This document shows positions 40,040 to 46,671 of a DNA stretch of 46,671 bases, in pieces. Below the pieces are notes generated by a model. That model ran no database searches, was not told where the DNA came from, and saw only the letters and a program-made list of their open reading frames with translations. Numbering within the stretch: position 1 is the first letter of the stretch; every line of letters begins with the position of its first letter. The stretch is from Verrucomicrobiota bacterium (GTDB lineage: Bacteria > Verrucomicrobiota > Verrucomicrobiia > Limisphaerales > JADLHS01): NCBI GenBank assembly GCA_025350905.1, contig JANXWY010000118.1, positions 1-46,671 of the forward strand. The letters are read 5' to 3'. The position numbers and the translations under genes were made by a program.

Positions 40040-40177
40040 CGGTCGAGCATGGCGAAAGCAACGGAATGCCCGCAAACCTAATCGCGCCACGGTAGCGACG
40101 ATCCGTTCCCAACTGGTTCTCCGCTGTTTCCGGTGCAACCGATTTAGCCGGCTCCGAGAAATTAGGGTCAACGCTCG

Positions 40178-40367
40178 CCCTCACCCCGGCCCTCTCCCCC
40201 GGGAGAGGGAGCAGCGCTTCACGCGTCTTGAAAGTTCGTTCGTTTTCGGTGCCATCGCCGCTGCTTCCTTATTCGTCGAGAAAGCCGTTCGACAACCCGC
40301 CGTCTCCGCATCGTCAAAACGCGGCGAACGATTCTCCCTCTCCCGGGGGAGAGGGCCGGGGTGAGGG
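40178..40367. repeat. 190-bp module with 32-nt perfect terminal inverted repeats
   Basis: The arms 40178-40209 and 40336-40367 are perfect reverse complements over 32 nt. Each begins CCCTCACCCCGGCCCTCTCC at its outer side and has its own inner palindrome (CCCTCTCCC/GGGAGAGGG). The 126-bp interior is shared with the module at 46080. The right arm ends 53 nt before the nuclease start codon. Confidence 0.85.
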
Positions 40368-40420
40368 CGGTCGTTCACACCATTCTTTTCTTCCGACCTG
40401 CTCAGGTTCATGTTCAGGTC

Positions 40421-40831
40421 ATGCCCGACACAGACCGTGCCCGAGCCTTGCGCCAGAAGCCAACTTGGGCGGAGAAGCTCGTGTGGAGCTGGCTGCGTGA
40501 CCGGCGATTCAGCGCCTACAAATTTCGTCGCGGCCATCCTGTCGGAATTTACTTTCTGGATTTTTACTGCCGCGAAGCCAGCCTCTCCATCGAACTCGAC
40601 GGCGGCGGACACGGGTTTCCCGGACAACAAGCTCACGATGCGGAACGAACCGAGTTCCTTGCTTCAATGGGCATCAAGGAACTTCGTTTCTGGAACTCGC
40701 GATTGCGCCAGGACAAACAAGCCATCCGGGATACTATCTTCCGCGAGTTGCAGGCCCGCGCGCCACACCCATTGCCGGATTACACCAGGCCTATGAAACC
40801 GCCGGATGTCGGGGGAAAAAAGAGAAGTTAA
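40421..40831 (+). CDS. DUF559 endonuclease-domain protein (PD-(D/E)XK, Vsr-like)
   Basis: Protein of 136 aa from ATG 40421, the only start shared with the second copy. The DUF559 core is clear: E18 (AEKLVWSWLRDRRF), the R/H-rich YKFRRGHPVG, D47 in FLDFYC, E58-x-D60 in LSIELDGGGH with H64, and then VKELRFWN-like ending (IKELRFWNSRLRQD). This corresponds to the PD-(D/E)XK nuclease fold also used by Vsr; the catalytic residues all appear intact. Such proteins are usually annotated as endonuclease-domain proteins without known role. The gene is framed by two inverted-repeat modules (53 nt upstream, 11 nt downstream). A basic tail (PPDVGGKKRS) ends it. Confidence 0.9.
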   Translation: MPDTDRARALRQKPTWAEKLVWSWLRDRRFSAYKFRRGHPVGIYFLDFYCREASLSIELDGGGHGFPGQQAHDAERTEFLASMGIKELRFWNSRLRQDKQAIRDTIFRELQARAPHPLPDYTRPMKPPDVGGKKRS

Positions 40832-40842
40832 CTTTACGCTCG

Positions 40843-41033
40843 CCCTCACCCCGGCCCTCTCCTCCGAGGAGAGGGAGAATTGTTGTCCGGCTTCTGGCCG
40901 TCCGTGCGGTTCCAGTTTTCCTGCGGCTGCGGGAGTAAAAAACGAAAGCGCGGGGCTGGCCACGATGTCACCGCAACCATGGCGGCACGCGCTGGCTTCA
41001 CCCTCTCCTCGGGGGAGAGGGCCGGGGTGAGGG
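40843..41033. repeat. 191-bp module with 33-nt terminal inverted repeats
   Basis: The arms 40843-40875 and 41001-41033 match at 32 of 33 positions and belong to the same family as the module at 40178 (CCCTCACCCCGGCCCTCTCC at the outer ends). The 125-bp interior has no obvious similarity to the other two modules although its length is almost the same. It begins 11 nt after the nuclease stop. Confidence 0.83.
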
Positions 41034-41177
41034 CGGTCCAAACCACCATCCGACCGGCGGGGCAATGTTCGGCTCACGCTGGGCTCCACCGAAAACAGCG
41101 AAGAACCTCGCGTAGTTTTCAAACAGGCTCTTACCCAACGATGGATTTGAAAACTGAGGGAGCTACTGCCTTTACTC

Positions 41178-41308
41178 GTAGGACAGGCGTCGTGCCTGTC
41201 TCCATCTGCAACCGGCTACCCACCATTGGGTGACTCAACCCCCCCCACCGAAAAAAACGCCTCAAGGCGGAGGTTTTTAGTTGGAGACAGGCGCGACGCC
41301 TGTCCTAC
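41178..41308. repeat. Twin-hairpin (REP-like) inverted repeat
   Basis: Two 27-nt arms (41178-41204 and 41282-41308) are inverted and match at 26 of 27 positions. Each forms a 7-bp hairpin, GACAGGC with GCCTGTC, around a 5-nt loop. The spacer holds the purF terminator. It is a different family from the other repeats in the window. Confidence 0.75.
41251..41280 (-). terminator. Rho-independent terminator of purF
   Basis: On the minus strand, the hairpin CGCC-TTGA-GGCG (41258-41269) is followed by seven T residues (41251-41257). It lies about 55 nt after the purF stop codon. CCTC and GAGG can extend or compete with the stem. Confidence 0.75.
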
Positions 41309-41322
41309 GGCATCATTCCAAC

Positions 41323-46005: not shown

Positions 46006-46532
46006 GGTTCTGCTCTGGGTTCGGTGGAGCCAGGAGCGAGTCAGGCAATTCGCCGATGGGCCGATGGTAGTTTGGTCCACCCTCACCCCGGCCCTCTCCC
46101 CCGGGGAGCGGGAACAGCGATTCGCGCGTCTTGAAAGCTCGTTCGTTTTCGGTGCCATCGCCGCTGCTCCCTCATTCGTCGGGCAAGCCGTTCGACACCC
46201 CGCCGTCGCCGCATCGCCAAAACGCGGCGAACGATTCTCCCTCTCCCCGGGGGAGAGGGTCGGGGTGAGGGCGGTCGTTCACACCATTCTTTTTTTCTGA
46301 CCCGCCTAGGTTTATGTTCACGTCATGCCCGACACAGACCGTGCCCGAGCCTTGCGCCAGAAGCCAACTTGGGCGGAGAAGCTCGTGTGGAGTTGGCTGC
46401 GTGATCGGCGATTCAGCGCCTACAAATTTCGTCGCGGGCATCCTGTCGGAATTTACTTTCTGGATTTTTACTGCCGCGAAGCCAGCCTCTCCATCGAACT
46501 CGACGGCGGCGGACACGGGTTTCCCGGACAAC
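46006..46532 (+). mobile_element. Truncated second copy of the DUF559-nuclease element
   Basis: The left half of the element at 40115 is repeated here: a 26-nt outer motif (46006-46031), which matches the outer right end of the complete copy at 22 of 26 positions in inverted orientation, a 192-bp inverted-repeat module (46080-46271), a 53-nt leader, and the first 208 bases of the nuclease gene. Similarity stops at 46532, where an IS630-type sequence begins. The right half is not in the window. Confidence 0.6.
46080..46271. repeat. 192-bp module with 33-nt terminal inverted repeats
   Basis: The arms 46080-46112 and 46239-46271 match at 31 of 33 positions. The 126-bp interior is homologous to that of the module at 40178 with about eleven differences. 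Same position relative to the nuclease start (53 nt) as in the first copy. Confidence 0.82.
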
Positions 46533-46564
46533 TAGTATTGTGCCAATATAGTTACGTTACATAA
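46325..46564 (+). pseudogene. DUF559 nuclease gene interrupted by an insertion sequence
   Basis: The first 69 codons are identical in protein to the intact gene at 40421 (ending GHGFPGQ), with all catalytic positions E18, D47, E58 and D60 retained. After codon 69 the frame runs into foreign sequence (LVLCQYSYVT) and stops at 46564. The lost part holds the C-terminal half of the fold, so the product should not be functional. Confidence 0.85.
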
Positions 46565-46671
46565 TGTCGCCCCAGCTTTTGGTCGGCATCCTGGCGGGTG
46601 AAAGTCCATTGAATCTGGCATCCCGCCGCGTTACGTCGTTGTTCCCAGGCCTCCACTTCGGCCTTTAAGTA
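46552..46671 (-). CDS. IS630-family transposase, C-terminal end (partial, runs off the window)
   Basis: Reading leftward from the window edge, 39 codons encode a tail with KAEVEAWEQRRNAAG, WTFTRQDADQKLGRHY, then a TAA stop (46552-46554). This is the conserved end of IS630-type transposases, usually EVxAWExxRN followed by W-x-F-T-x-x-DAR-x-KL-x-x-LYP; here DAD and HYVT replace the usual residues. The DDE core lies outside the window. The element end should be near 46533, where similarity to the intact DUF559 gene stops and a TA dinucleotide, the usual IS630 target, occurs. Confidence 0.75.
   Translation of the reverse strand, partial: YLKAEVEAWEQRRNAAGCQIQWTFTRQDADQKLGRHYVT

Follow-up and report, generated by a model that had tools for sequence, protein, structure and literature searches.

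Is a small DUF559 nuclease gene, bracketed by paired inverted repeats, part of a mobile element, and if so, which of the sequences around it belong to the moving unit? The question is raised by the window, that is, the whole 46,671-nt stretch of DNA analyzed here, which is one entire contig (C84) of the 6.27-Mb draft genome of a Verrucomicrobiota bacterium. Both the sequence and a repeat search of the window agree with the anatomy given in the preliminary description: the DUF559 gene is bracketed by two modules of two inverted arms each, and outside these by a 26-nt imperfect inverted repeat (Table 1). The arms of the left module sit within a 65-nt inverted repeat of 85% identity, those of the right module form a 39-nt inverted repeat of 95% identity, and the two outer repeats pair at 22 of 26 positions when counted by eye. 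Translation of the nuclease likely starts at the ATG at 40421, with the stop codon ending at 40831. The second copy reported at 46006 was recovered as direct repeats of 154 nt (91% identity) and 290 nt (96%) at a spacing of 5903-5904 nt; its gene match stops at 46535, the contig ends at 46671, and the 3' part that is absent here is matched at the beginning of another contig (C461:1-219, 96% identical to 40657-40876 of the window). The sequence directly after the truncated second gene, 46536-46671, is unrelated. The proposed limits of the unit, 40115-41107, did not hold up in general, because the right outer repeat has just three occurrences in the genome at up to 3 mismatches and is therefore not general to the repeat family. 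The conserved part of the window element is the set of inner arms around the gene, the 26-nt outer repeat being a local feature. Inspection of the element by eye revealed no target duplication.

Table 1. Features of the DUF559 element and of its second copy, in window coordinates.
Feature	Position	Strand	Evidence
Left outer imperfect inverted repeat	40115..40140	+	sequence and repeat search
Arm 1, BoxC-type, third-strand head facing outward	40178..40209	+	repeat search, genome core count
Arm 2, BoxC-type, head GGGTGAGGG facing gene	40336..40367	-	repeat search, genome core count
DUF559 nuclease gene, 136 aa	40421..40831	+	PF04480 E=5.7e-31; AF2 model pLDDT 82.9
Arm 3, BoxC-type, head facing gene	40843..40875	+	repeat search, genome core count
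Arm 4, BoxC-type, head facing outward	41001..41033	-	repeat search, genome core count
Right outer imperfect inverted repeat	41082..41107	-	repeat search; genome search of this copy
Outer repeat of copy 2	46006..46031	+	repeat search
Arm 1 of copy 2	46080..46111	+	repeat search, genome core count
Arm 2 of copy 2	46239..46271	-	repeat search, genome core count
5' part of second DUF559 gene, then unrelated sequence	46325..46535	+	PF04480 E=5.8e-19

Each arm consists of a hairpin, CCCTCTCCC-loop-GGGAGAGGG, and, separated from it by 3 nt, the head GGGTGAGGG. The arm core (CCCTCACCCnnnCCCTCTCCC hairpins) occurs 190 times (99 + 91) in the 6.27-Mb genome at up to 2 mismatches, compared with 0 + 0 matches of the reversed control pattern in the same genome; chance repeats, which had already been judged a poor explanation of the nested layout, are rejected by these counts. 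Among the 100 places listed, 16 arm pairs have their heads outward and lie 107-129 or 167-171 nt apart, and a single pair within 250 nt has the opposite order. Upstream of another DUF559 gene (locus L006, contig C376, 880-1450), arms recur every ~209 nt in the manner of a BIME array.

The arms are not a new repeat. The exact core strings, including that of window arm 2, are present in the text of Holder 2015 on E. coli BoxC (PMC4666352), and the arms have the purine stem hairpin and mirror third strand of that repeat, with TTA or CCG as the second loop (CCG in window arm 2). Judged by sequence, the window arms are members of the E. coli BoxC/PIT/"intrastrand triplex" (TM) family, the same repeat as the TM(ECO) of that paper. 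According to its main text, the E. coli repeats have lacked an explanation since the 1990s; TM(ECO) has 23 copies in MG1655, and the motif is found in more than 260 genomes, singly or in inverted pairs, in many bacteria, with no functional class among the flanking genes, and the triplex is formed in vitro by the isolated strand, not by the duplex nor in in vivo footprints (PMC4666352). BoxC is also listed among stem-loop families in PMC2267715. The main text of Holder 2015 names no gene partner (the words ycjD and endonuclease are absent from it), reports no link to mobile elements and takes the polymorphism of the motif as instability (PMC4666352), whereas here we find both a DUF559 partner and insertion. 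Across DUF559 loci, the stems vary (GGGAGAGGG, GGGAGAAGG, GGAGGAGAGGG, GGGGGGAGG and others) and the heads, which end in GGTGAGG, GGAGAGG or GGAGGGG, vary together with them, staying near the mirror image of the purine stem. For 35 distinct stem/third-strand pairs, picked by the 3-nt gap and head composition only, the mirror match of each stem with its own third strand was 7.46 of 9 positions, compared with 6.09 for permuted pairs (maximum 6.94 in 10,000); such covariation would be expected from selection on the three-strand fold or on a protein reading it. Three Geobacter-type loci (Desulfuromonadales; L143, L152 and L170) have a variant arm, GGGGAGG-TTA-GGAGGGG or near, and other Geobacter loci carry the standard arm.

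Arms are strongly concentrated at DUF559 genes. A PF04480 search of 57 genomes, including that of the window, gave matches in 34 genomes at 72 places; 57 places were read (41 stand-alone genes, 6 embedded in other genes and 10 weaker hits), and the 15 left unread all had E values of 4e-14 or weaker. All 41 stand-alone genes of the window genome and its relatives are flanked by an arm within 200 nt, on one side or both (upstream 35/40, downstream 36/38, both 30/37), compared with 8 of 250 control windows taken from the same loci at a distance of at least 700 nt. The nearest upstream arm points its head toward the gene in 35/35 cases and the nearest downstream arm in 32/36, the opposite orientation being found at four loci. 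The weaker hits have an arm in 0/10 cases (0/51 in their control windows), a contrast that is not a blind control because stand-alone and weaker hits were sorted by eye after a first look at which of them lacked arms; a later check found the FRR motif in the domain of 39/41 stand-alone, 6/6 embedded and 0/10 weaker hits, and the sorting therefore has a basis in sequence. Eight of the ten weaker hits sit in frames longer than 500 aa, L062 and L069 sit in shorter frames, and the only one of the ten that was scanned, L063, is a ResIII helicase.

The association extends over many phyla. A named set of 80 loci from Verrucomicrobia, Gallionella, Geobacter, Anaerolineae, Enterobacteriaceae, Cyanobacteria and others, which is a non-random DUF559 sample because it was collected by similarity to the window-type protein, and in which 12 loci duplicating the relatives are still counted, has an arm within 200 nt in 61/80 loci (controls 13/1401) and the standard arm in 24 of 30 genomes of the set. 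A recognizable arm within 200 nt is missing at 19/80 of these loci, which counts against a one-family reading. When the best inverted repeat bracketing the gene was scored in a motif-free test, a score of at least 14 was reached in 43 of 76 loci (4 of the 80 were without flank) and in 2 of 265 controls. The preliminary description had proposed a REP-like logic with an unrelated enzyme and had named arm enrichment near DUF559 genes as its test; this proposal is supported by arms that are scattered genome-wide yet strongly enriched at these genes, in a pattern repeated in the Enterobacteriaceae.

In the latter family, a strong stand-alone DUF559 gene was found in 13 of 119 genomes, and an arm begins 9-54 nt past the DUF559 domain in all 13 of these loci, compared with 0/7 weak enterobacterial hits and 2/104 control windows. 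An arm within 200 nt upstream was found at 0/13 of the strong genes, and the enterobacterial gene is thus not bracketed by arms. In MG1655, the DUF559 gene is ycjD, located between sapF and fabI; the arm at its 3' end is decayed, and an intact BoxC follows 166 nt past the stop codon. E. coli ycjD is the familiar member of the DUF559-arm family. In 3,362 of 5,426 E. coli genomes, at least 80% of the sapF-ycjD-fabI query is matched at one place. The sapF-fabI interval was considered as an empty ycjD site and rejected, since an efflux operon occupies it in the two ycjD-less strains that were read (PMC12817139); with the locus filled in this way, the interval defines no element ends. In ycjD-type genes of some enterobacteria, a strong headless hairpin ends at the start codon (L180 / L181, ~1434-1482; L154, L179, L247, L253), and may be a left end or an operator.

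The window protein matches PF04480 with 107 bits, compared with a curated cut-off of 20.6, so that its earlier assignment to DUF559 stands; the Vsr-like fold that had been assigned along with it has homology and an AlphaFold model (mean pLDDT 82.9) as its basis. The closest solved structure is NGO0050 of Neisseria (3hrl, profile E=6.6e-35), followed by the catalytic domain of the homing endonuclease I-Bth0305I (3r3p), to which the relationship appears in both the profile (E=2.3e-4) and the Foldseek (E=7.3e-4) comparison, then by PvuRts1I/AbaSI and, weakly, by Vsr. Some mitochondrial ribosome chains of Toxoplasma have a matching fold as well. An alignment of 55 sequences, for which 54 of the 80 named loci were taken and 10 others had stop codons, has E58, D60, H64, D73 and R89 among its 14 invariant positions. 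Homology and the model together predict a nuclease of Vsr/homing-type PD-(D/E)XK fold. The proteins that resemble DUF559 by fold similarity, Vsr, PvuRts1I and AbaSI, act in mismatch repair or on modified DNA, and we know of no association of theirs with repeats. A link between YcjD and Vsr is already in print (PMC1189080).

The gene also occurs inside other genes. At 19 loci, the DUF559 domain lies within a host protein, with host sequence on both sides; the hosts are hsdR (L041, L044, L045, L163, L171), hsdM or N6-methylase (L042, L055, L074, L176), valine-tRNA ligase, valS (L120, L123), methionine-tRNA ligase, metG (L130), methionine synthase, metH (L125, L142), HrpA-like helicase (L121, L122), MmeI (L156, L177) and an Eco57I-type methylase (L127). 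None of the 19 embedded frames is interrupted by a stop in a stop-to-stop search in which masked bases counted as no stop, and the arms are translated as linkers, for example PSPPSPLPVGEG (L055) and LPSPAGRRAGDEG (L042). Insertions in protein loops would thus survive in frame because the arms read stop-free as Pro/Ser/Gly/Arg-rich linkers. Arms accompany 5 of the 6 embedded loci of the relatives, with their heads outward in 4/4 upstream and 5/5 downstream cases, so that heads face stand-alone genes and point outward around genes embedded in hsdR/hsdM, a difference in orientation that speaks against a one-family reading. The hsdM genes of three relatives differ by frame-keeping insertions at four sites, each seen with and without insert; at two of these sites the insert is a DUF559 gene between arms, and the same or other sites hold just arms or are empty. 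Gene-bearing hsdM inserts bring arms at both ends, and insert-free sites are without both. Three Anaerolineae (L125, L142, L149) have a DUF559 insertion in methionine synthase, and those of L125 and L142 precede the same point of the B12-binding region. The recurrence of similar hsdR, metH, valS and hrpA-like sites fits homing-like gene conversion between alleles, or common descent. Homing endonucleases and inteins likewise reside in frame at recurring sites of conserved genes; in contrast to inteins, the ends here are many-copy repeats, and Pfam searches of 18 host frames (some scanned in part, and some family scans taking stops as X) gave no intein family, the nineteenth frame, L123, having an NCBIfam scan only. 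Rickettsia palindromic elements are small palindromic repeats that are also inserted in frame in protein genes; we liken them by description only, and know of no nuclease-bearing copy of them.

Arm number follows the presence of the gene. Among the relatives of the window genome, the median is 66.5 arms in the 22 genomes with a strong stand-alone DUF559 gene and 1 in the 35 others (p=8e-9), the 22 being hand-picked from tables and the counts being inflated where the reversed control matched too (G012 43, G048 30). The corresponding medians in Enterobacteriaceae are 31 with the gene (13 genomes) and 0 without it (106 genomes; p=3e-13), and the difference keeps p=7e-9 once 45 reduced genomes, also hand-picked from tables, are removed. 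Many arms without a strong DUF559 gene are found in 6 of the 35 relatives (at least 9, up to 55) and in 5 of the 106 enterobacteria (up to 70); such arm-rich genomes could have lost the gene or have it in a gap of the draft assembly. One enterobacterium (G154) has the gene and variant arms but no standard arm. Arm type, in turn, follows the nuclease: on a tree of 64 labeled nucleases, weakly resolved and built without 12 named loci duplicating the relatives and without rows shorter than 75 aa, head type changes 5 times, compared with 9-15 times in 500 label shuffles. Two nuclease clades coexist in the window's genome and in one relative (G003); the GGTGAGG-type and GGAGAGG-type nucleases there are each accompanied by the corresponding arm type.

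We consider it fairly probable that BoxC/PIT/TM repeats and the small, YcjD-type DUF559 nuclease are two parts of one mobile DNA family. The repeat probably spreads together with the nuclease gene, and the direction of cause would run from the gene to the spread of the arms, rather than from existing arms to insertion of the gene. The reverse, in which BoxC arms are old, passive and structure-prone, and a homing-type DUF559 gene cleaves at them and inserts beside them without spreading them, seems to us unlikely but has points in its favor: the nearest characterized relative in both sequence and fold is a homing endonuclease, the hsdR, metH, valS and hrpA-like sites are occupied across several genomes as homing predicts, and some genomes hold arms without the gene. 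Passive arms do not readily explain why arm number tracks gene presence in two distant groups, why arm type tracks nuclease clade within one genome, or why the gene-bearing hsdM inserts have their own arms at both ends when the insert-free sites have neither.

Within E. coli, arm numbers differ between strains (31 in H240, 14 in KE47), and of five polymorphic sites, four were aligned, the fifth being yhfS-frlR. Adjacent to soxR, 2 of 40 sampled rows contain the full-length BoxC pair; of the others, 37 cover 821-824 nt where the full length is 1000 nt, and 1 aligns with nothing but the arm. The extra 178 bp of the occupied allele, found in M12 and KE47, are made up of 154 nt plus a repeat of a 24-bp sequence; the three shorter alleles read (K-12, KKa019 and AVS0710) have this sequence once, and the KKa019 allele is 99.5% identical over the matched part. 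The soxR site is a clean insertion of a BoxC pair, with 154 nt inserted and a 24-bp target duplication; a check of 30 E. coli arm loci gave no other flanking direct repeat longer than 13 bp. A clean junction was found at 1 of the 4 aligned sites and is absent at recA-recX, gcvP-ygfF and argE-ppc, where the alleles differ beyond the insert; recA-recX is occupied in 12/40 sampled rows, and its flanks differ outside the insert. One BoxC arm lies on the E. coli plasmid p94_0962-1, between flgF and flgG (L227, 1501-1538), and may have been brought along by the flagellar genes. Deletion by replication slippage, in line with the reading of Holder 2015, would explain BoxC polymorphism without any insertion, and both the three sites without a clean junction and the many small intergenic losses reported at E. 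coli TM loci (PMC4666352) are compatible with it. We nevertheless think slippage improbable, as the occupied soxR allele is the rare one, with 37 rows ~178 nt shorter, and the 24-bp flanking repeat is single in the shorter alleles. Occupied and empty sites, whose comparison the preliminary description had suggested, thus both exist, in hsdM of the relatives and at soxR; since arms are enriched at DUF559 genes and empty sites are found, neither of the two patterns that it had named as speaking against a mobile element, namely, arms scattered with no such enrichment and loci never seen empty, was observed.

In another reading, which we regard as quite improbable, the arms would serve the DUF559 gene as terminators or regulatory hairpins, and its product would be a repair or restriction nuclease like Vsr. 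A Caulobacter DUF559 protein, VsrA, is genetically tied to cytosine methylation (PMC12907096), many in-frame hosts are restriction-modification genes, and the enterobacterial arm lies solely 3' of the gene, in the position of a terminator; such a role does not suit arms found on both sides of 30/37 stand-alone loci in the window's group, many arm copies far from the gene, or arms and gene inside the valS, metG and metH reading frames.

In its overall architecture, the mobile family that we favor resembles REP/REPIN repeats and their RAYT enzymes: in both, an enzyme gene lies between two inverted palindromes (here in the 30 bracketed window-group loci, the Enterobacteriaceae having the downstream arm only), many solo and paired copies exist, and repeat and enzyme types co-segregate (PMC2817692). 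The differences concern the enzyme, which is Y1/HUH there and a PF04480/DUF559 PD-(D/E)XK Vsr-like protein between the arms here, the head, which is GT(A/G)G there and a triplex third strand here, and, in the present case, one 24-bp target duplication and in-frame copies inside genes. DUF559-BoxC thus lacks two defining REP/RAYT features, the Y1 enzyme and the GT(A/G)G head. The E. coli RAYT gene yafM has Y and Z2 repeats at its borders (PMC2817692), and the E. coli genome therefore has two repeat families with two unrelated neighbor enzymes. The window itself also contains a different inverted repeat (41177-41207 / 41279-41309, CGTAGGACAGGCG..CGCCTGTCCTACG), GTAG-tagged like classical REPs, with more than 10 additional matches in the genome. 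Movement of the arms by a REP-type Y1 (RAYT) or other transposase, with DUF559 as a passenger, is suggested by this architecture and by the GTAG-tagged repeat (41177-41309) but is very improbable, given that the E. coli RAYT gene has Y and Z2 repeats and ycjD has BoxC, that DUF559 is the recurring neighbor of arms across phyla (in searches that covered PF04480), and that a 24-bp target duplication is unlike IS200/IS605 transposition.

The mobile family that we infer would resemble REP/REPIN but use a Vsr/homing-type nuclease in place of the Y1 transposase. Gene-bearing copies would be its autonomous form, and single arms and arm pairs would be its non-autonomous, REPIN-like form. We speculate that exposure of an arm as single-stranded DNA, as at a replication fork, lets it fold into a hairpin or a three-stranded structure, which the nuclease may recognize and nick; staggered nicks in the target, followed by repair fill-in, would then yield a long target duplication and a new copy, in a copy-paste manner. 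The moving unit would be variable: a single arm, an arm pair or arm-gene-arm. On a broader proposal, we are evenly divided: a mobile class distinct from DDE, HUH, tyrosine, serine and Cas1 systems, in which a stand-alone Vsr/homing-type PD-(D/E)XK nuclease moves the triplex-forming BoxC, both in cis and in trans, to sites between genes or, in frame, within essential proteins, in at least Verrucomicrobiota, Pseudomonadota, Geobacter-type bacteria, Chloroflexota and Cyanobacteria, with E. coli ycjD/BoxC as its laboratory model.

What is new here is the partner gene, DUF559, for BoxC, the repeat itself being already known; a search of open-licence literature found no link of DUF559/YcjD to BoxC, REP or other repeats. 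A partner enzyme turns the nature and spread of BoxC into a question for knock-out and biochemistry in K-12. Peptides resembling LTPALSPGERE are common in predicted proteins, and one such frame was seen here; if the proposed family is real, these peptides would be read-through arms. A function would then be available for a common domain of unknown function, REP-like logic would have arisen twice, around enzymes unrelated to each other, a natural DNA triplex motif would be tied to a nuclease, and a nuclease-carrying element would be living in frame inside essential enzymes without an intein.
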